In this document: positions 3,141-35,036 of the stretch, one piece after another
Layout of the letters: every line of letters starts with the position of its first letter
How positions within the stretch are numbered: position 1 is the first letter of the stretch
DNA from: Mariprofundus sp.
Lineage (GTDB): Bacteria > Pseudomonadota > Zetaproteobacteria > Mariprofundales > Mariprofundaceae
Direction: 5' to 3'
DNA: 35,036 nucleotides
Assembly (NCBI GenBank): GCA_030951045.1
Contig: JAUZQJ010000101.1
Coordinates: 1 to 35,036 of the forward strand
Program-made: the position numbers and the translations under genes
Notes under the pieces: generated by a model
What the model was told of the DNA's origin: nothing
Databases searched by the model: none
What the model saw: the letters and a program-made list of their open reading frames with translations, nothing else

Positions 3141-5051
3141 ATGGCTAAATTACGGTTACCTTTATTGCTGATGGTCTTGCTCGCCGTTGGGGTAGCACTC
3201 TATCTGCTTTTTTCTGCTCCCGATTATGGCGATATCAATGCAGATGGTCTGAATCTGGGTAAAACGGCTTACCAGGAAGGGGATTATCATAATGCGGCCA
3301 AATGGTTCCGTTTAGCGGCCAAAAAAGGTGATAAAGAGGCACAATACCTTTTTGCCATGTTATATCGTGATGGCAAAGGTGTGCAGCGTGATGATGTGGA
3401 AGCGGTTGTTCATCTTAAGCTTTCCGCAAAACAAAAATTTGCACAAGCGCAATATCAACTGGCCAATATGCTGGAGTATGGGCGTGGTGTACCTGCGGCT
3501 GATTTGAAAGCTGCATTTGGGTGGTATAAGAAAGCGGCAGAGAATGGCTTAACAGCAGCCGAATTGCGTATGGCAGTGATGTACTCAGAAGGACGTGGCG
3601 TAAAGAAGTCTGATGCAGATGCGTTACTATGGGCTATTCAAGCCGCCAATTCACACAGTATTGAGGCAACATCTTACCTGCAGCGTTTACTCAATAAGGT
3701 TAGTGCCAAGGCATCGGCAGGAGATTCATCGGCGCAATTTGTATTGGCTCGTATATATCAGCAGGGCCAGGGTCTTAATGCGGATATGGAAAAGGCTGAG
3801 CAGTGGTTGCATCAAAGTGCTAGCAGTGGAAATGCCAAAGCTCAGTTTCATTTGGCGGAATTGCTTTTGCACAGCAGTAAACCCGAAGCCATCCAGCATG
3901 CAGCAGGCTGGTATGCCAAAGCTGCTGAACAGGAGAATATGCCGGCAGCAGCAAGGCTCGGTGTACTCTATGCGCTTGGTGAGGGTGTAGAACTAAATCG
4001 TGTTGAAGCATTAAAATGGTTACAGAAAGCGGCTGAGAGCGGCTTGCCATCACCACAAAGTAATCTGGGTATTATGTATGCCGAAGCAGGCAACGACGCA
4101 CTTGCAGCGTCATGGTTGGAAAAAGCAGCCGAGCAGGGTGATCGGGTTGCACAAAATAATCTTGCGGTCATGTATGCACTGGGCAGTGGTGTAAAGTTGG
4201 ATTTGAAAAGTACCGTGAAATGGTTGAAGGCTGCTGCTGAAAATGATGATGCGTTGGCGCAGTATAATCTGGCTCTGATGTACTTGCGTGGTATTGGTTT
4301 GATGCAGAATGAAGATGTTGCGCTAGAGCTACTAAAGAAAGCACAAACTGCAGCAGGCTTTGAAGCAAAATTACTGTTGGGTATGATGTATGATCTGGGT
4401 TATGGCATTGTCACCAGCAGCAGCGATGCAGAAGCGTGGTATCAACAGGCCCGTGGGCTTGGTAGTGAAGATGCACTGTATAATCTGGCGGCACTTTATT
4501 ATAGACAATTGAAATATAAAAAGGCCTTTGATCTGTTTGTGCAGGCGGCTGAAAAAGGTGATATGGAGGCACAGAATACCATTGCATCGATGTATCAGAA
4601 TGGGCAGGGGGTAGATGTGAATACCAAGCAATCTATCCACTGGTACACTCTGGCGGCAAAGCATGCTTATGCTCCGGCCCAGTTCAACCTGGGAAATATT
4701 TATCGCAAAGGTGATGGTGTTGAACAGCAGGATGACAAAGCCGTGCAGTGGTATCGTGAGGCAGCCATACAAGGGTTTGCTGAGGCACAAAACGCTCTGG
4801 CTTATATGTATGCGCTGGGGCGTGGTGTTGGCATAGATCGGGTGAAGTCTGATCATTGGTTTAGTAAAGCAGCGAAGCAGGGCTTACGAATTGCGGAGCA
4901 AAACATCTCTGTGCTCAGACAGAATAAAAGTGGCTTTACGCTAACCAGTGGTGCTATTGATATTCAATTGAGACTCGAAATTCTGGAAGAAAAACCGTTT
5001 AATCTTGCCAGCCGTTTACAAACCTACCATACAGCTCAATTGAATAAATAA
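3141..5051 (+). CDS. Membrane-anchored Sel1-like repeat (SLR/TPR-like) protein
   Basis: N-terminal TM (LRLPLLLMVLLAVGVALYLLF), then about 15 Sel1 units of the form A..WY.KAA..G...AQ..LA.MY..G.GV. Confidence 0.93.
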   Translation: MAKLRLPLLLMVLLAVGVALYLLFSAPDYGDINADGLNLGKTAYQEGDYHNAAKWFRLAAKKGDKEAQYLFAMLYRDGKGVQRDDVEAVVHLKLSAKQKFAQAQYQLANMLEYGRGVPAADLKAAFGWYKKAAENGLTAAELRMAVMYSEGRGVKKSDADALLWAIQAANSHSIEATSYLQRLLNKVSAKASAGDSSAQFVLARIYQQGQGLNADMEKAEQWLHQSASSGNAKAQFHLAELLLHSSKPEAIQHAAGWYAKAAEQENMPAAARLGVLYALGEGVELNRVEALKWLQKAAESGLPSPQSNLGIMYAEAGNDALAASWLEKAAEQGDRVAQNNLAVMYALGSGVKLDLKSTVKWLKAAAENDDALAQYNLALMYLRGIGLMQNEDVALELLKKAQTAAGFEAKLLLGMMYDLGYGIVTSSSDAEAWYQQARGLGSEDALYNLAALYYRQLKYKKAFDLFVQAAEKGDMEAQNTIASMYQNGQGVDVNTKQSIHWYTLAAKHAYAPAQFNLGNIYRKGDGVEQQDDKAVQWYREAAIQGFAEAQNALAYMYALGRGVGIDRVKSDHWFSKAAKQGLRIAEQNISVLRQNKSGFTLTSGAIDIQLRLEILEEKPFNLASRLQTYHTAQLNK

Positions 5052-5084
5052 TGGGTCAATGAACAGGAAACGTTAAAAAGTGGG

Positions 5085-5621
5085 TTAAGATCCGGTAACG
5101 ATAGCCTGCACATGAACATAGCCGGGCTTACCGGCCGTCTGGAATTTTAACTGTTTTAGACCAAGATCACGTTTGGCCAGAGCATGTATAAATCGCAACA
5201 TGCTATCATAGGGTACATTTTTGATACTTAGCATCAGCCTTTGCGGTCCGCCATTCAATGAAGTCAGGGGTTTAATCCGGGTCATAAATGTTCTGATATT
5301 GGTCTGACGGGCCAGTTGATCGACGGTGCTTAACAGGCTTTCAGTGTTGTTGTTTGATTTCAGGTCTGTGGCATGTGCAGTTAAATAACTGGCGAGTTGA
5401 TTCGCTTTTGCAGCCTGATTTGTGGCAATACTTAACTCTTTCTGCAATGTGAGTTGTCGGTCATGCAGTGGTATCATAAGCCCGAATACGATGATGATGA
5501 GTGGTAATGCGATAGTAGCGACCAGTACAAGTTTCTGTTCACGACTCTCCAGTTGTTGATATCGAGGTAATAGCTGTTCTTCAAAGCGTTGCGTAATGGC
5601 GCGTTTCCATGCTTCAATCAT
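5085..5621 (-). CDS. gspM: Type II secretion system protein GspM
   Basis: N-terminal cytoplasmic segment + TM (LVLVATIALPLIIIVFGLMI), periplasmic ferredoxin-like tail; directly after gspL. Confidence 0.8.
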   Translation of the reverse strand: MIEAWKRAITQRFEEQLLPRYQQLESREQKLVLVATIALPLIIIVFGLMIPLHDRQLTLQKELSIATNQAAKANQLASYLTAHATDLKSNNNTESLLSTVDQLARQTNIRTFMTRIKPLTSLNGGPQRLMLSIKNVPYDSMLRFIHALAKRDLGLKQLKFQTAGKPGYVHVQAIVTGS

Positions 5622-6961
5622 GACCAGACCAACTTGAATTTGACTTCGTTGCCACTACTAAGGTTGGTGTCTTGAATTTTGATATCCTCTCCAGACGCGC
5701 TCTGCAGCGCCTGATGAATATTATTCATGGTTTGTAAATCTTTACTGCTTCCCGTGAGTGTCATGGTGCCATCTTTGAATGATATTTCCTTTACCGTCCA
5801 GTTTATTTGTTGATAGACGCGATTGATAATATCCATGCGCTGCAACCATTGCGAAGCAAGATTACGATGGTTTTGAGCACGCATGTCCGTGCCGCCGTCG
5901 CCAGCAGCTTTGCGTAGCTGAGCAAGTGCATCAATGATCACTTTTTCATCTGGTAACCCTTTATGAAATGCTTCAATAACCTGTTGTTGATGCATGATAA
6001 GCTGTTGTTCAAGTTGCCGGTTTTGCCAAACCTGAGATACGGACCAGACCAGCATGAGTACAGCTGCCAATGCCAGACTACGATACCACGGTTGTATTTG
6101 ATTCATGTGTGAGCCGGAGCGCCATCGACCGTGGCGGAAATTAAAGCTTGAAACCGTTGCAACAGCGATGGTGGCATCACGGCGAGAGGGTAATTCGCCA
6201 GCCTCACATAATTCACCGCGCCATGTAGAAAATTTAAGTGCTTGATGTAAGTCCACACTTAACCTGCCAGTAGCAGCATCTCCTTCATCCTCTCTCCAAC
6301 CCATGCTATGCAGTGAGCGCCGAATATTTTCAACGGTGCCAGATGTATCACTGCCTTCATCAAGATTAAGGCGCCGCATGGCAAGCCAGAAACCATCATT
6401 GATCTGCTCACCGGGGCAGTTCCATACACCGAAAAACAGCCCGGATGCATCGTTATCAAAGACGGCAAGCTTTCTGTTGGCGGTCACTTCTGATTCTTCA
6501 GTGACTTGTGTTGTAGCGTGATGATCGCGCTGGTCATTGAGTCGAGCCCATATATCACTGCCTATAAAGCTGATGTCGCGCCAGTTATCATTGATATCAA
6601 TGCCTTGGCGTAATGATTCCGCGACACCGAACATGATGCCGGCTACTGCTTCACTATCTTTTTGACCAGCTCTCCATGATAGCCACCATGATTCGGCACT
6701 TTCTGAGCTGCGTTCCTCCAGTTCCTGAGAAAGGATATCCTGATCAATAAATTTAGCGTTGGAGAAGGGTAAATGAAATGTTCTATTAAGGAGTTGTTCA
6801 ACTGGCAATAGCAATCGAGCAACCGTAGCTCCATCCGGCAGTGTGGGTAGCAGATCATTTTCAGATATGGCTAAGGTCATCATATTATGATTGGCATCAA
6901 TAGCATGCCATTGCTTACCATCAGAGCAAATCGTAACTGCCTGTTTTATGATAGCGCTCAT
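5618..6961 (-). CDS. gspL: Type II secretion system protein GspL
   Basis: Actin-like cytoplasmic domain start (LLLPVEQLLNRTFHLPF), single TM, periplasmic ..GTMTLTGSSKDLQTMNNIHQAL..; 4-nt overlaps with gspK and gspM. Confidence 0.85.
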   Translation of the reverse strand: MSAIIKQAVTICSDGKQWHAIDANHNMMTLAISENDLLPTLPDGATVARLLLPVEQLLNRTFHLPFSNAKFIDQDILSQELEERSSESAESWWLSWRAGQKDSEAVAGIMFGVAESLRQGIDINDNWRDISFIGSDIWARLNDQRDHHATTQVTEESEVTANRKLAVFDNDASGLFFGVWNCPGEQINDGFWLAMRRLNLDEGSDTSGTVENIRRSLHSMGWREDEGDAATGRLSVDLHQALKFSTWRGELCEAGELPSRRDATIAVATVSSFNFRHGRWRSGSHMNQIQPWYRSLALAAVLMLVWSVSQVWQNRQLEQQLIMHQQQVIEAFHKGLPDEKVIIDALAQLRKAAGDGGTDMRAQNHRNLASQWLQRMDIINRVYQQINWTVKEISFKDGTMTLTGSSKDLQTMNNIHQALQSASGEDIKIQDTNLSSGNEVKFKLVWS

Positions 6962-7974
6962 GGTGTGGTGCTCGTTGCTGGAAGGGCGGCTGCGCTGCGG
7001 TCGCGTTCAAATGTCAGCAGCGTTACTATTCCGGGTTGGCGACGCAGCATAAATGTCTCCCTTAAATTAGCCCGACCAAAACTGGCCTGTGTTCGTACCA
7101 TAAAGTGATCACTGATTACGCTCAAGTATGGCTGCTTCAGGCCTGTGGCCCAAGTGCGGTTTTGTAGTGCCGCAGCGACCGATGCAAAGGGGCGTTCGGA
7201 GATAAATATTTCAACATCTGAAACAGTTATATTTGGTGCCAGAGCCATAAGCACCGGAGCAGATGCCGTATTGATATTGATGCTTGAAATACCGCTTACT
7301 GGCACCTCTCTTACGCTAGTGTAAGGCTCCAGTTGCGCCAGTATCTCTGGCTTGAAACCGCGAATAAGCAGTAGTTCATGCCAGCGATCAAGGCGGGCAT
7401 TTTTAACATGATAATCCTGATCATAATAACTAGCGTCTTCTGCTCCATTGCTACCATGTACGGATGAGTCGGTGTCCATCCAGTCAATTAATGCATCAAC
7501 TAGCCCTGCATCGAGTTCAAGCTGCGTGAATAAGGATTTCAGATATGTTTCAACCAGCTGATTCACCATACCTTTGTTATTGACCAGATCATTAAGATTG
7601 ATCATGCGATTGCTATCAATAATGTCTCCCTGAACAAGACCATCATCAATAGGGAATGCTTCACTCTGCTGTGCCCACGCTTCATCCAGATCATCGGTTT
7701 GAGACTCTTGCAAATCTTCACGTAATATTTTCGCACTTAATATTAATGCCGATTGATTAGCCTGCTCTGCACGCAGGGCGTTATCGCTGTTCTCAGTGCG
7801 ACGTAGCGCGATACTATCTTCGTACATGGCATCTATGGCCCAAGTGCTGATCAATGCAACCAACCCTAGTACAATGATCAGAGCAGCTCCGCGTTGATGT
7901 TTTTTGGGGGGGCATGGAAGTTGCTGGGTGAGATCGCTCATAGCTGTTTGCCCGGCAATACCGGCATCAACCAT
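6958..7974 (-). CDS. gspK: Type II secretion system minor pseudopilin GspK
   Basis: RGAALIIVLGLVALISTWAID pseudopilin N-terminus; ..NLNDLVN..; ..ALIDWMDTDSSVHGSNGAEDASYYDQDYHVKNARLDRWHELLLIRGF.. characteristic of GspK. Confidence 0.92.
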   Translation of the reverse strand: MVDAGIAGQTAMSDLTQQLPCPPKKHQRGAALIIVLGLVALISTWAIDAMYEDSIALRRTENSDNALRAEQANQSALILSAKILREDLQESQTDDLDEAWAQQSEAFPIDDGLVQGDIIDSNRMINLNDLVNNKGMVNQLVETYLKSLFTQLELDAGLVDALIDWMDTDSSVHGSNGAEDASYYDQDYHVKNARLDRWHELLLIRGFKPEILAQLEPYTSVREVPVSGISSININTASAPVLMALAPNITVSDVEIFISERPFASVAAALQNRTWATGLKQPYLSVISDHFMVRTQASFGRANLRETFMLRRQPGIVTLLTFERDRSAAALPATSTTP

Positions 7975-28340: not shown

Positions 28341-28455
28341 GTAACCGTCATCATATTTCTCCAACATCAGGTGTGTTCTTTACCACAGGGCAGGGGTTGA
28401 GAGCTTTTTACGAATCATCTGAGTGCATAGAAGAATATATATACCGGAGGATTTT

Positions 28456-28821
28456 ATGAGTTTATATGATGAGTTAGGCGGTGAGGCATCCATTGATGCA
28501 GCGGTTGGTATTTTTTACCGTAGAGTATTGGGCGATGCATATATCAAACGTTTTTTTGAAGGCATCGATATGGAAAAACAGGCAGCTAAGCAGAAAGCCT
28601 TTTTGACCATGGTCTTTGGTGGCCCTAATAATTATACCGGCATGGATATGCGTGTAGGTCATAAACACCTGGTGGAAAAAATGGGCTTGAACGATACTCA
28701 TTTTGAACATGTATTGGCGCATCTGCGTTCGACGTTGGCAGAGCTGGGTGTTGGTGAAGCTAAAGTTGCAGAAATCATTGCGATTGCAGATAGCGTCCGC
28801 GATGATGTGCTTAATCGATAA
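28456..28821 (+). CDS. Truncated hemoglobin (group I/N-like)
   Basis: ORF 28423..28821, ATG 28456 with GGAGG; MSLYDELGGEASIDAAVGIFYRRVLGDAYIKRFFEGIDMEKQAAKQKAFLTMVFGGPNNYTGMDMRVGHKHLVEKMGL. Confidence 0.93.
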   Translation: MSLYDELGGEASIDAAVGIFYRRVLGDAYIKRFFEGIDMEKQAAKQKAFLTMVFGGPNNYTGMDMRVGHKHLVEKMGLNDTHFEHVLAHLRSTLAELGVGEAKVAEIIAIADSVRDDVLNR

Positions 28822-28847
28822 ATAATAGTGAATAAAGAGAGTATGCC

Positions 28848-29807
28848 ATGCCGATGATTACGTTTGATGGTCATGATTATGACTGTCATCAAGGTGAAAC
28901 GATTCTTGAGGGTTTAACCCGGCATGGTGTACTTCTCCCTTCTGCATGTGGGCAGGGTGTGTGTCAGACATGCATAAGCAAAGCAGTCAAAGGGAAGCCA
29001 CCTGTTGAATCTCAAAAAGGTTTGAAAGATACATTGGCTGCACAAGGTTATTTCCTAACATGTATCTGCAAACCCGAAGAAGATATGGAGCTAGCTGTTG
29101 CGGATGTGTCAAAAGGTTGGCTTAAGGCTGCCGTGATTGAAAAGCAGATGTTGAATGAATCTGTCATGCGTTTGCGCCTTCAAAGTGAAGAAACGTTAGA
29201 TTATTTTGCTGGTCAGTTTATTAATTTGAAACATCCTGAAACAGAGTTGGTGCGTAGTTATTCATTGGCAAGCTTACCTGATGATGGGGTGTTGGAGTTA
29301 CATGTTAAGCGTGTACCTAATGGCCAGATGAGCGGATATTTGCATGATGACGCGCAGATTGGTGGTCGCTTTACGATAGACGGGCCTGTCGGCGATTGTT
29401 TTTATACGGATAAAGATTTAGACCAGTCTCTACTGATGGTGGGGGTTGGCACAGGGCTTGCTCCATTATACGGTATTGTGCGTGATGCACTGCAACATGG
29501 TCATCGTGGTGAAATTCATCTGTTTCATGCAAGCCTGGCAGAATCAGGACTGTATTATACTGATGAGTTAAATGCGCTGGCACAACAGCATGAAAACGTG
29601 CATTATATCCCTTGCGTATTGCATGGCGAAGTGCCTGAGGGAGGCATGAAGGGCGATATTCAACAGCTTGTTCAGACCGCTGTTCCACAATTAACCGGTT
29701 GGCGGATTTATGTGTGTGGTGATCCTGAAATTGTGAATGGATTGAAGCAGACGTGTTTTATGGCAGGTGCATCCATGGCAGATATTTATACTGATCCATT
29801 TGTGTGA
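28848..29807 (+). CDS. 2Fe-2S ferredoxin-FAD/NAD(P)H oxidoreductase (oxygenase-reductase type)
   Basis: Plant-type 2Fe-2S motif PSACGQGVCQTCISKAVKG..YFLTCICKP; FAD motif VRSYSLAS; NAD motif LLMVGVGTGLAPLYGIV; ..IYVCGDPEIV.. Confidence 0.93.
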   Translation: MPMITFDGHDYDCHQGETILEGLTRHGVLLPSACGQGVCQTCISKAVKGKPPVESQKGLKDTLAAQGYFLTCICKPEEDMELAVADVSKGWLKAAVIEKQMLNESVMRLRLQSEETLDYFAGQFINLKHPETELVRSYSLASLPDDGVLELHVKRVPNGQMSGYLHDDAQIGGRFTIDGPVGDCFYTDKDLDQSLLMVGVGTGLAPLYGIVRDALQHGHRGEIHLFHASLAESGLYYTDELNALAQQHENVHYIPCVLHGEVPEGGMKGDIQQLVQTAVPQLTGWRIYVCGDPEIVNGLKQTCFMAGASMADIYTDPFV

Positions 29808-29860
29808 TCTGCATAACGTTGCGTGTTTATACGCAGTATGAAAAAAGAGGAGGATAGATA

Positions 29861-30916
29861 ATGAGGGTATTAAGGTTAATGGTAGCAATGTCACTGGCGA
29901 TCGGCGGGCTGTTTACAGCGATGACGACGGCAGAGGCTGCAACACGTGAAATGAATATGACGATTGACGAAGTGTCACTGGCAGTAGCTCCGGATTTGAA
30001 CTACAAAGTATTTGCATTTAACAGTCAGGTACCTGGTCCACTGATTCACGCGCAAGAGGGTGATGATCTGGTTGTTCATGTCACCAATAATACGACGCTA
30101 TCCCATACCATTCATTGGCATGGATTCCATCAGAAGGGTTCATGGCGGATGGATGGTGTTCCCGGCATCACGCAGGAACCTATTAAACCAGGTACCACAT
30201 TTACCTATAAGATGAAGGCGGATCGCCCAGGCACGCTCTGGTACCACTGCCATGTAAATGTGAATGAACATGTTGGTATTCGTGGTATGTGGGGCCCGAT
30301 TGTTATTGATCCGAAGCATCCAACAGCCTTGGAAAAGACAGTGACCAAAGAAGTGTTGATGATGATGTCTACATGGGAATCAGCCAATGCTGATAAATAT
30401 GGTACAGGTTCAACGCCATATGATGTGGAAGATTACTTTTCTGTAAACGGTCGTTCATTCCCTTATACGCAACCGATTCGCATGAAGACTGGTGATGTGG
30501 TGCGTGTGCGTCTGTTTGGTGCAGGTGGTGCCATTCACTCCATGCATGTACATGGTCATGACTGGACTGTAACCCATAAAGATGGTTTGCCTTTGGCTGC
30601 ACCATATAAATCAGAGACCATTATGTTTGGCCCGGGTGAACGTTATGATGCAATCTATACCGCTGATCATAAGCAGGGCCGTTTCATTTTCCACGATCAT
30701 GTTGATAAACATGTAACTGCGCGTGGTAAATTCCCTGGTGGCCCGATTACAGTACAGGAGTACGAAGGTACACCGATGGATGACTGGTATGTATGGAAAG
30801 ATATCAAATATGATCCTGATTTCTTCTATCAGGAATCTATGAAAAAAGGTTATGGACTCTTTGAGCAAACAGGACATAAGGGTACTGCTATTAAAACAAG
30901 ACGCAGAGGACACTAA
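29861..30916 (+). CDS. Two-domain multicopper oxidase with signal peptide
   Basis: Copper motifs HTIHWHGFH, GTLWYHCHVNVNEHVGIRGMWG (T1-like Cys/His/Met), HSMHVHGHDW, FIFHDHVDKHV. Confidence 0.92.
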   Translation: MRVLRLMVAMSLAIGGLFTAMTTAEAATREMNMTIDEVSLAVAPDLNYKVFAFNSQVPGPLIHAQEGDDLVVHVTNNTTLSHTIHWHGFHQKGSWRMDGVPGITQEPIKPGTTFTYKMKADRPGTLWYHCHVNVNEHVGIRGMWGPIVIDPKHPTALEKTVTKEVLMMMSTWESANADKYGTGSTPYDVEDYFSVNGRSFPYTQPIRMKTGDVVRVRLFGAGGAIHSMHVHGHDWTVTHKDGLPLAAPYKSETIMFGPGERYDAIYTADHKQGRFIFHDHVDKHVTARGKFPGGPITVQEYEGTPMDDWYVWKDIKYDPDFFYQESMKKGYGLFEQTGHKGTAIKTRRRGH

Positions 30917-30918
30917 AG

Positions 30919-32001
30919 ATGAAATATCTGACTCGCACTTTATCAGTTGCTTGCACAGCCTTTGCATTGCTGTTTTGCACATCAGCATTTGCAGACAGTG
31001 CAGCGGGCTTGAAAGTGATAAAAAAAATGGAATGTGCGTCTTGTCATAATATGACTGGCAAACCAGGGCCTGAAACTGCAGGGCTCTGGCGTAAAGGACC
31101 TGCGCTCTATTATGCCGGCAATAAATACAATGAAAGCTGGTTGAAAGAGTGGTTGCAACATCCAACACAAATTCGACCTTCCGGCATGTTTTATCTGGAT
31201 CATGTTGAATCAGGTAAAAAGAGGGATATGATACGTACTACATCCTTCCCTGAGCACGTGAGCTTACCTGCCATGGAGGCGGAAAGTGTAGCTGCGGTCT
31301 TGTTGGCCAAGAGAACAAAAACTGCATTGATTAGAGCTGAAAAGCTTGATCCATCCATCAATGCAGGGTCCGCAGGCGAAGTGCTGTTTGATAAAGGTAA
31401 TGGCTGTATGGCTTGTCACCGTATCGCACCTGATTACGGAGGCTTGTCTGGTCCTGAGCTATACTCAGCTGGTAAGCGTTTAAAATCGGAATATATGTTA
31501 AGTTTTGTCCGTGATCCAAACAGATGGAACCACAAAACATATATGCCTCGACGTGATCTTTCTGAAGAAAACTTACAGAAACTGGTTAACTATATTGATT
31601 CTCTTGCAGGTGTTGTTGTACCAAAGGTAAATGAAAATACCGAAGAATCAGTGGCTGATCAGGAACCTGCTGGAGAGATGCCAGTATTCAAAACAGATGA
31701 TGTGAATGAATCGGCTGCTAAAAACTACCGTCATTATTGCATGCAGTGTCATGGTATTTCCGGACATGGAAGTGGTATTAACTCTCGTGATATGGCTGTA
31801 CCTGCCCGTAACCATAGTAATGGTAAATATATGCAGGCCAGGTCAGATGCTGATCTGTTCAAGGTAATTAAAGAGGGCGGTGTATCGATCAATAAATCAG
31901 CTTTGATGCCACCTTGGAAATCACTTCTGACAGACGCTGAGATTCATGATCTTGTGAAACATGTACGCAAATTATGTCACTGTGAATTTGAGCCTAAATA
32001 A
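30919..32001 (+). CDS. Periplasmic triheme c-type cytochrome
   Basis: Signal peptide; three CXXCH motifs CASCH, CMACH, CMQCH; adjacent to the MCO stop. Confidence 0.92.
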   Translation: MKYLTRTLSVACTAFALLFCTSAFADSAAGLKVIKKMECASCHNMTGKPGPETAGLWRKGPALYYAGNKYNESWLKEWLQHPTQIRPSGMFYLDHVESGKKRDMIRTTSFPEHVSLPAMEAESVAAVLLAKRTKTALIRAEKLDPSINAGSAGEVLFDKGNGCMACHRIAPDYGGLSGPELYSAGKRLKSEYMLSFVRDPNRWNHKTYMPRRDLSEENLQKLVNYIDSLAGVVVPKVNENTEESVADQEPAGEMPVFKTDDVNESAAKNYRHYCMQCHGISGHGSGINSRDMAVPARNHSNGKYMQARSDADLFKVIKEGGVSINKSALMPPWKSLLTDAEIHDLVKHVRKLCHCEFEPK

Positions 32002-32030
32002 GGGCTGAGAATTCGCACATTATGTATAAA

Positions 32031-32050
32031 AGGAGGGGGAAACCCCTCCT
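32031..32050 (+). other. Perfect 8-bp hairpin with GAAA (GNRA) tetraloop in the intergenic mRNA
   Basis: AGGAGGGG-GAAA-CCCCTCCT with no downstream U tract. Confidence 0.6.
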
Positions 32051-32109
32051 GATACGTTCAGAGAGAGCAAGTCTGTATCTGTTTCAAACAATGGTATTAG
32101 GAGAGAAAT

Positions 32110-32883
32110 GTGCTAACTAAAAAGCTAATATTTACCTTGGGATTACTATTTTTCATAGTCTCAAATATAGGCGGCTATGTATATAAGGTTGAAAGTCTGC
32201 CTGTAATTATTCCTCAAAAAGGCATCCAGGCAAATATGGATTCGACTTTTTATATTAAAAATACTTCTCAAAAAACCGGTGTTACTTATGAAATGCTGGA
32301 TCCACATGTAACAATCCTGGATTCAGGTGACGTGGCTGTGAAGCTGGACCTAACGTTGACAGCAAATCCTCAGGTTGAATGGGGAACAGTAGAGTTTGTA
32401 TCAACGCTTGATTTCGATAATGTGGTGAACGTTGTCCTGTTGAAAGTCGTTGATCAGGCTGTTATCACCGTCTTGGATAAAAACTCAACCAGTCCTGATT
32501 TTAACCTCTGGAATAAAGACATAAAAGTGCTTGTCGAAGATATGACAACTCAGATTAATAACTATCTGAGTAAAAATGTACTTTATACCTTGAAAGGTGC
32601 CGAATTAAGGGTGCAGGCTTCATCTTATGCGATTGGCCCATATAAGAAGACACCGACCGGTCTGGATATTACCTTGATGGTGGATCAAGGCATGACGATC
32701 TTTATTTTATATACTGTGATGCTCTTGTCAGTATTGACCTTTGCAGCGGGTTACTTCTTCGTTGGTGGTGTAGCAGGCTGGAAAGATCCGGATGATACAG
32801 GCTGGCACGATCCAAGAAAATTCGCCAAGAAAAGACGCCCTGGTGACTTTGATCGTGAACATAAACCTGATGATAAAAGCTGA
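32110..32883 (+). CDS. Hypothetical membrane protein: N-terminal TM, periplasmic beta-rich domain, C-terminal TM and charged tail (GTG start)
   Basis: KLIFTLGLLFFIVSNIGGYVY; MTIFILYTVMLLSVLTFAAGYFFVGGV; tail DPDDTGWHDPRKFAKKRRPGDFDREHKPDDKS; GGAGAGA upstream. Confidence 0.75.
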   Translation: MLTKKLIFTLGLLFFIVSNIGGYVYKVESLPVIIPQKGIQANMDSTFYIKNTSQKTGVTYEMLDPHVTILDSGDVAVKLDLTLTANPQVEWGTVEFVSTLDFDNVVNVVLLKVVDQAVITVLDKNSTSPDFNLWNKDIKVLVEDMTTQINNYLSKNVLYTLKGAELRVQASSYAIGPYKKTPTGLDITLMVDQGMTIFILYTVMLLSVLTFAAGYFFVGGVAGWKDPDDTGWHDPRKFAKKRRPGDFDREHKPDDKS

Positions 32884-33033: not shown

Positions 33034-33141
33034 ATGGAACAGCAATTAACTGCTTTTATTTATCCTTTTATCCTGTTTGTTGTATTGGGTGTAGTAGCAC
33101 CTTTACTGCTTGCTGGCGCTGCTGATCGCAACCGTGACTAA
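33034..33141 (+). CDS. 35-aa single-TM microprotein
   Basis: GGGAGG 10 nt upstream of the ATG; MEQQLTAFIYPFILFVVLGVVAPLLLAGAADRNRD; followed by a terminator. Confidence 0.65.
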   Translation: MEQQLTAFIYPFILFVVLGVVAPLLLAGAADRNRD

Positions 33142-33196: not shown

Positions 33197-33231
33197 AAAC
33201 CGCCTCGGAGTGATCCGCAGGCGGTTTTTTT
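33197..33231 (+). terminator. Rho-independent terminator
   Basis: AAACCGCCT-CGGAGTGATCCGC-AGGCGGTTT followed by TTTT. Confidence 0.88.
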
Positions 33232-33291
33232 CGTTATGAAATAACTTCTACATTCCATAAAATATTAACGATGCTCAAACAGGAGAAAGAA

Positions 33292-34413
33292 ATGACTTCC
33301 CCGCAATCATCCGGTTCTGTTCCTAAACTGCGAAAGAATGCCGCCATGGATCAGCGTTTTATGAAAACATTGGGCTTCTGGGTTATTTGGCTGTCCATTA
33401 CTACAGGCGTGTTTATGCAGCTCTATCAGCAGGCGGATCTGTGGGACTTTGTGATCAATGATACCTCCCGTGTTACATGGGTCATTATGATCGCATTTGC
33501 GCTAGGTGTAACTGTCAGCTTGATTCATGTGTTGTTGTTAACCGTGGAGTGGTTTTATGGTTACAAGTTGGAGGGGCAGTTAAAAAGACGCGGCTTGCAA
33601 GCGGCACGTATGACCAAACGTCGTATGTCGAGTACATCGAGTCGTTTTCTTGAGGCTATTCAGCATATTAGCCAGTCCGGTGGTCAGGTGAACCTGATAG
33701 AGCTCAGTACGGTAGAGTTTGCTTCGCATATTCGTGGCAGTCGTTTTGTTGGTTTGCTGGGCAGTTTATTGATCACAGTAGGTTTGATTGGAACGGTCAT
33801 GGGGCTAACCATTACTTTAACGGGCTTAAATGGCGCATTGAACAATGTTGGTTCAGATAGTGCCACCATACTGGTGAGTCTAAGTGAAGCATTGTCAGGT
33901 ATGGGGCTGGCATTTTATACCACCTTATTGGGTGCAATCATGGGTGGTGTGTTGCTGCGCGTGTTTGCCTATATTTCTGATAACTCGATTGAAGCATTGC
34001 AGGATCTGCTGGTGCGCAGCTGCATGGTGTATGCCTCGGTAGAACTGACATCTACGGTTCAGCGTGATTATCTCGCACTGGATGAGTCGTTAGCAGGCAT
34101 GGAGCAGCGCATGGCTTCATTGGGGCAATCAATGCAAGCCAGCAAGCATGCCATGTCTGAATTTGCACAGGAAATGCGTGAACTCAAACAGGCAACGCGA
34201 TTAAGTGAAGATGATGATGAGGTATTTAAAGCGATTGCTGTACATCGTCATTACGCCAAAGTACTGCGTTATGAGTTAAGTCTTCAGAAACAGTTGGCGA
34301 GTTTTAAACAGCGCTTGTTGATGGCGATGGGATTTCAGCCAAAAAATAATCAAGATCAGATCGACTCAATGAAGAACAATGCAAGCACAACAGATCAAAA
34401 AACCGAGCTCTGA
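33292..34413 (+). CDS. MotA/TolQ/ExbB-type proton channel family protein
   Basis: ORF 33271..34413, preferred ATG 33292 (AGGAGAAAG upstream). Two N-terminal TMs, then FVGLLGSLLITVGLIGTVMGLTITLTGL and SLSEALSGMGLAFYTTLLGAIMGGVLL, typical MotA/ExbB TM3/TM4; short coiled-coil tail. Confidence 0.88.
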   Translation: MTSPQSSGSVPKLRKNAAMDQRFMKTLGFWVIWLSITTGVFMQLYQQADLWDFVINDTSRVTWVIMIAFALGVTVSLIHVLLLTVEWFYGYKLEGQLKRRGLQAARMTKRRMSSTSSRFLEAIQHISQSGGQVNLIELSTVEFASHIRGSRFVGLLGSLLITVGLIGTVMGLTITLTGLNGALNNVGSDSATILVSLSEALSGMGLAFYTTLLGAIMGGVLLRVFAYISDNSIEALQDLLVRSCMVYASVELTSTVQRDYLALDESLAGMEQRMASLGQSMQASKHAMSEFAQEMRELKQATRLSEDDDEVFKAIAVHRHYAKVLRYELSLQKQLASFKQRLLMAMGFQPKNNQDQIDSMKNNASTTDQKTEL

Positions 34414-34415
34414 TC

Positions 34416-35036
34416 ATGCGCACGCGTAATAATCAGGAGACCGGCTCTATTTACGAAGTCTTTTCAGATATGGCGTTGTTAATGCTCGCAGCATTTATCT
34501 TTATCCTGGCCATGATTTTGATGGTCTCGAAAATGCAGGGTAACGGCGATTCTGAACTGGACAAAGCAGCCATCGCTTCGCTTGAAGATTCACTGGCGAA
34601 GTCTAATGCGCGTAATGTTGAACTGATGCAGGAGATGAACTCTCTGGTTGGTGCCGATAGTGAACAGCAGATGAATAAGGTATTGGCATCAGCCGGATTT
34701 GGTGTCGGCCAGGGCCGCAAGGATTTTGAATTGATGGTGCAAGGTCTGCGTGCTCTACCTGGTAAAGATCTGCATCTGGTGATTGATGCTACAGGTTCGA
34801 TGCATGGTGCGACCTCTTTTTTGATTCCGGTACTGCGCGTGATTGCAATCAGGTCGGGTAAGAAACTGGCTGCAGTAAGCTGGTATGCGGACAATAAAAC
34901 CAATACTGCAACAGGCTCCATGGGCGCAATGTTTGATCAATTGATGCAGGAGGCTCCTTTTAGCGGTAGCGATGAGTCGATTGGCCATGCCTTTGATGCG
35001 ATTGCGCAAAACTCTCCTATACCCGGTGCTTATCTG
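34416..35036 (+). CDS. MotB/ExbD-like N-terminal TM with conserved Asp, coiled-coil linker and periplasmic von Willebrand A domain; truncated by window end
   Basis: ATG 34416, open to the window end (207 codons). IYEVFSDMALLMLAAFIFILAMILMVSK (Asp18 at TM start as in MotB/ExbD); MIDAS LHLVIDATGSMHGA (D124-x-T126-x-S128). Confidence 0.85.
   Translation, partial: MRTRNNQETGSIYEVFSDMALLMLAAFIFILAMILMVSKMQGNGDSELDKAAIASLEDSLAKSNARNVELMQEMNSLVGADSEQQMNKVLASAGFGVGQGRKDFELMVQGLRALPGKDLHLVIDATGSMHGATSFLIPVLRVIAIRSGKKLAAVSWYADNKTNTATGSMGAMFDQLMQEAPFSGSDESIGHAFDAIAQNSPIPGAYL

Follow-up and report, generated by a model that had tools for sequence, protein, structure and literature searches.

Two genes lie at the right-hand end of the window, that is, the whole stretch of 35,036 nucleotides analysed here, which corresponds to one entire contig (C4, 35036 bases) of a 2.26 Mb draft genome in 164 contigs. 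The nearest named relatives of this genome are Mariprofundus species, among which Mariprofundus EBB-1 carries a 97% identical protein, and the source is accordingly a Mariprofundus-like zetaproteobacterium, an iron oxidiser of the sea. The pair consists of two plus-strand open reading frames, at 33271-34413 (with a better start at 33292) and 34416-35036, separated by 2 nt. The start at 33292 is preferred over that at 33271 because it has an AGGAG site and because the second genomic copy of the gene has the same start codon. The window ends with the contig, and the second protein, which carries a von Willebrand A (VWA) domain, therefore stops at residue 207 of about 260. Another contig (C102), taken as its reverse complement, shares the final 132 bases of the window apart from 2 mismatches and supplies the rest of the VWA gene; it was assigned to this copy of the pair on the basis of synteny with relatives. 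The features of the locus are as follows.

33199..33231, plus strand: intrinsic terminator upstream of the pair, stem-loop ACCGCCTCGGAGTGATCCGCAGGCGG then T7, -18.6 kcal/mol
33292..34413, plus strand: MotA/TolQ/ExbB-type channel, 373 aa (PF01618, Foldseek, MotA profile match)
33721..34035, plus strand: channel TM3-TM4 core, residues 151-255 in numbering from 33271 (columns invariant or nearly so)
34036..34410, plus strand: channel C-terminal tail, variable, helical, predicted to be cytoplasmic (AF2 helices 263-309 and 313-352)
34416..35036, plus strand: transpore-helix/vWA protein, residues 1-207 of about 260 (length from complete relatives)
34467..34469, plus strand: codon of Asp18, which is predicted to carry the ion and stands at the head of the transmembrane helix (from conservation)
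34470..34526, plus strand: single transmembrane helix, residues 19-37 (hydropathy 3.0; AF2 helix 12-42)
34536..34706, plus strand: coiled-coil linker, residues 41-97, fast evolving (AF2 helices 50-78 and 82-92)
34707..35036, plus strand: VWA domain, N-terminal two thirds (alternating strands and helices; Foldseek)
34785..34799, plus strand: MIDAS motif 1, DATGS, D124-x-T126-x-S128 (alignment of 31)

The initial annotation described a MotA/TolQ/ExbB-like channel gene followed 2 nt later by a VWA gene, and Pfam and Foldseek bear out this description of the two frames. The channel matches Pfam MotA_ExbB (PF01618) at 5e-6, above the cut-off, and MotA in a profile comparison (E 3e-4), and its AlphaFold model resembles ExbB, ZorA, MotA and TolQ. 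Within its TM3-TM4 core Thr169, Thr175, Thr217 and Thr218 are conserved. The home genome encodes eight MotA/ExbB-type channels in total, seven of them above the Pfam cut-off.

The second protein begins with basic residues, which are followed by YEVFSDMALLMLAAFIFILAM, the coiled coil and HLVIDATGSMHG. Neither it nor its complete relatives matched any VWA family in Pfam or NCBIfam, and a PDB sequence search with the VWA profile returned nothing useful, MotB (6ykp_F) appearing only at E = 1. We therefore call it a VWA protein by its fold. In the AlphaFold model of the closest complete relative (260 residues, 16 aligned sequences) a clear domain of alternating strands and helices extends from residue 98 onward, and Foldseek placed the model with integrin beta3, VWF A2, calcium-channel alpha2-delta, TFIIH p34 and NorD (E 2e-4 to 1e-3 to VWA/integrin domains, at moderate model confidence). 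One moderate-quality model was available for each protein; that of the VWA protein has a mean pLDDT of 63, with the transmembrane helix below 50, which we count against the motor reading proposed below. MotB_plug was detected below the Pfam cut-off only, and the Pfam and NCBIfam results contained no OmpA-like domain and no ExbD/TolR family. Thus the proposal that a coiled coil and a VWA domain take the place of an OmpA-like or ExbD domain held up, as did that of a MotB/ExbD-like helix with an aspartate; Asp18 is invariant in the Zetaproteobacteria alignment and present in 30 of the 31 sequences of an alignment (A6) that spans both classes in which the protein was found. The one departure, at L155 6845-6920, has Ala for Asp18 through GCT in place of GAT, the gene being intact apart from this, and its sister L152 keeps the Asp. 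It reflects either an error in the draft genome or a variant of the ion path, and we count it against the motor reading as well.

The window covers the first MIDAS motif only, in which D124 and S128 are found in 31/31 sequences and residue 126 is T or S. The remaining motifs were read from complete relatives, where they were assigned from the order of elements, secondary structure and spacing rather than from a metal-bound structure. On this basis the second motif is expected in the loop G184-x-x-E187-T/N188 before helix 189-199, and the third would be D211, within LIGDE, a residue that is invariant in complete relatives. The truncated window was thus too short to judge the original call of an intact MIDAS; complete relatives support a MIDAS, with the qualification that its second motif reads E-T/N. 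D124, S128 and D211 are all invariant.

Upstream, the terminator separates the pair from a preceding globin/oxidase cluster; it was overlooked by a simple scan owing to a bulge and was recovered by folding. Downstream of the VWA gene on C102 lie convergent genes on the opposite strand which, from their translations and general knowledge, we take to be pgl, zwf and gnd. Both the upstream and the downstream gene order are identical in another genome (G012, L038), and a further one (G010) has the same downstream order. Given the terminator on one side and the convergent genes on the other, the two genes alone most likely form the transcription unit at this locus. No third gene recurs near the pair in both classes, so any ligand of the VWA domain is probably not encoded nearby; the lack of a recurring ligand or partner gene is a further point against the motor reading. 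The expectation that more components would follow beyond the contig end is thus contradicted, both by the convergent pgl-zwf-gnd genes and by the lack of a recurring third partner.

Contig C6 ends with a second copy of the channel gene, which follows a CcoG-like gene at a distance of 16 nt. At their 5′ ends the copies (G000 C4:33281-34250 and C6:14228-15196, L005) share 70% identity, and further downstream 97-100%, a gradient that suggests gene conversion, which may in turn explain the assembly breaks.

Profile searches within Pseudomonadota detected the VWA protein in 43/78 Zetaproteobacteria genomes and, at E below 1e-97, in 22/274 genomes of a second proteobacterial class (that of G247), which judged by its gene content is probably Gammaproteobacteria. 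The class of G320 (190 genomes) yielded only weak matches, mostly confined to helix plus coiled coil, and a plasmid search and a first wider attempt on a small class gave no matches. A 399-genome sample of the phylum likewise gave no match outside Zetaproteobacteria; the 274-genome sample was searched with a broader profile than this one, and the distribution figures depend on sampling. Presence is patchy even among close relatives, and two single-contig Mariprofundus genomes lack both genes. With many close relatives lacking the pair, its job is dispensable, and this too we count against the motor reading.

Fifty inspected stretches contained 49 VWA genes and 49 channel genes, and both genes were on the same strand in 48/48 loci showing both; the exceptions, on C6 and C102, are contig ends. 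With 48 same-strand pairs in 50 stretches and contig-end fragments in the other two, chance pairing is excluded. All 20 pairs of the second class consist of neighbouring genes, with -43 to +29 nt between called ORFs in 19 of them and 252 nt in one, distances for which the start codons are uncertain. The distance matrices of the two proteins are correlated (r = 0.84 over 54 loci), to which shared phylogeny contributes. A second vWA gene was seen in none of the 49 VWA-bearing loci.

The genomic surroundings bear on one alternative, in which the pair would be a gated ion leak or sensor whose channel opens or closes upon ligand binding by the VWA domain, reporting envelope or redox state. Several Zetaproteobacteria pairs do adjoin globin, cytochrome, multicopper oxidase or CcoG-like genes. 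However, the second class does not retain this redox-gene neighbourhood, and the best-studied members with a 5:2 arrangement work by ion-driven movement (general knowledge; PMC9389320), so we regard such a sensor as quite unlikely. A functional link to the globin and CcoG neighbours was rejected as a general rule, the neighbourhood being lost outside Zetaproteobacteria. A link to the twisted stalk (sfz) was considered and set aside, the second class not being known to form stalks.

The cluster itself (window 28423-32883) encodes a globin, a 2Fe-2S/FAD reductase, a small multicopper oxidase, a cytochrome c in three stretches and a conserved membrane protein (32110-32883) with no Pfam or NCBIfam match, and it is syntenic in Mariprofundus. 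Between this cluster and the terminator, at 33034-33141 on the plus strand, is a 35-aa membrane micropeptide, MEQQLTAFIYPFILFVVLGVVAPLLLAGAADRNRD, which many Zetaproteobacteria loci encode as an ORF of its own and which also recurs at the N-terminus of the cluster's Bac_globin protein, as its transmembrane segment.

Conservation across the two classes points to the parts of the pair that matter. In the VWA protein D124, S128, H120, H130, W156, D159, T164, E187, D211, E212 and D216 are invariant in both. Mean between-class identity is 59% for the VWA domain, 55% for channel TM3-4 and 54% for the transmembrane helix, and falls to 24% for the coiled coil and 23% for the channel tail, a pattern which argues that selection acts on the ion path and the VWA domain. 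It also weighs on a second alternative, namely that the VWA domain is a mere anchor and that the output comes from a turning pentamer whose cytoplasmic tail acts on a cytoplasmic partner. Axles with an OmpA-like domain are thought to be anchored, as by the peptidoglycan-binding domain in MotB and ZorB, and the channel does have a helical C-terminal tail and a weak ZorA resemblance. Yet the tail is the least conserved part and the VWA domain the most conserved, and no cytoplasmic partner gene recurs; we therefore consider this arrangement unlikely. The conserved VWA domain and the poorly conserved tail instead point to a useful output in the periplasm.

The architecture as such is already in print. 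A family of vWA proteins adjoining tolQ homologues, in the absence of tolR or exbD, was described in 2025 (Williams-Jones et al., PMC12204202). These TPH-vWA proteins have a 'transpore helix' with an essential Asp, occur predominantly as heterologous pairs and are assigned no function, and AlphaFold 3 models of this related family set the helix Asp in a Thr ring (PMC12204202). The present pair shares with them a tightly adjacent TolQ/MotA/ExbB-like gene, an N-terminal Asp helix and a vWA fold with a MIDAS. A locus of that kind, L163 (genome G420, 4114-6973), combines a single TolQ-like channel gene with two TPH-vWA genes that differ from each other. Against the present family its channel scored E 2e-19 (hhalign) and its helix E 3e-9, and a profile of its two vWA proteins matched members of the family at E 1e-6 over the region between the helix and the beginning of the MIDAS, whereby we place our pair among the TPH-vWA motors. 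Pfam VWA models recognise the VWA domain of L163, whereas they do not recognise that of the present family. Consequently, the earlier remark that no well-described pathway has this architecture has been overtaken by the published description, which assigns no function, and the architecture as such cannot be called new. The difference lies in gene number, as the published family has mostly two different vWA genes and the pair described here has one. This single-gene version is simpler and differs from the predominant arrangement, and one vWA gene would probably mean a homodimeric axle. Single-gene members may already sit in the published, Idiomarina-seeded set, given the paper's wording 'predominantly'; Zetaproteobacteria are not named in its available parts. 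In the literature we found no experiment on any family member, which likewise counts against the motor reading.

Other known systems resemble the pair in part. The analogy drawn at the outset to 5:2 motors is supported, since MotAB, ExbBD, TolQR, GldLM and AglRQS share the channel fold, the Asp-bearing helix and the two-gene unit (PMC9389320). Their periplasmic domains are OmpA-like, ExbD/TolR-like or GldM, whereas here there is a VWA domain, and the MotAB stator in particular differs in that MotB_plug scores below the cut-off here and no OmpA-like domain was detected. The SHLS-motif vWA force transducers, the first class in PMC12204202, are also TM-tethered and adjoin motor genes. They attach laterally to a complete TolQR-like motor; in contrast, the present family lacks the SHLS motif and its vWA protein itself has the Asp helix.

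Another stator-like arrangement was observed in the form of a trio comprising a MotA-like channel, a protein of ~200 aa and a membrane protein of ~172 aa. The ~200-aa protein has a DPFTDLLFN...F helix and the motif 'KAEYIITVSWPDNxPDDIDTWVEDP', and its L164 copy is without a Pfam match. The trio occurs at L164 4368-6274, L166 3158-5049, L167 2925-4690, L168 4278-6753, L169 4686-6482, L171 1-1786 and L174 3538-5374, and is possibly another motor.

The resemblance to Zorya ZorAB raises a third alternative, an anti-phage system. Both have a MotA-like channel with a C-terminal tail and a MotB-like axle. The channel has a ZorA fold match, and in PADLOC it matched ZorA weakly, at E 1e-8 to 1e-6 with only a portion of the profile covered; a single match to ZorB was obtained at E 0.019. 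However, the peptidoglycan-binding domain of ZorB is replaced here by the VWA fold, and an OmpA-like domain is required in Zorya (PMC11890865). Moreover, no ZorC/D/E or nuclease partner was found: in the home genome the pair is flanked by housekeeping genes without PADLOC matches, and elsewhere by varied housekeeping genes. A Zorya-like role is thus very improbable.

On balance, we consider it probable that the pair is a stand-alone two-gene, ion-driven 5:2 motor of the inner membrane that exerts torque or tension on a periplasmic ligand through its MIDAS. Five channel subunits would form the pore, and two VWA proteins would insert their N-terminal helices into it as a plug, bringing Asp18 opposite the channel threonine ring. 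Flow of ions, probably protons, would then turn the helix pair relative to the pentamer, and the coiled coil would carry this motion several nanometres into the periplasm. There the VWA pair may grip a conserved ligand through its MIDAS metal ion, placing torque or tension upon it. A coiled coil rises 0.15 nm per residue, such that about 55 residues would span roughly 8 nm. Such a shaft would reach the peptidoglycan zone but not the outer membrane, except if the ligand extends inwards.

We also put forward, tentatively and with considerably less confidence, that pairs with a single vWA gene form a separate class. Each would be a homodimeric machine of two genes, powered by the PMF, in which ion-driven turning would exert mechanical control over an integrin-like, metal-dependent grip on one conserved envelope ligand. 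Working with no partner gene of its own, it might then act as a motorised adhesin or a clutch. Those 5:2 motors whose job is known fulfil important tasks in the cell envelope, namely motility, iron uptake, division, gliding and phage defence. Reduced to two genes without accessories and ending in an output recognisable as metal-binding, the pair is probably among the simplest to reconstitute. It is widespread enough for testing, its conservation pattern directs attention to the VWA surface, and reconstitution would offer a direct test of whether the axle of such a motor turns against a ligand that it holds.
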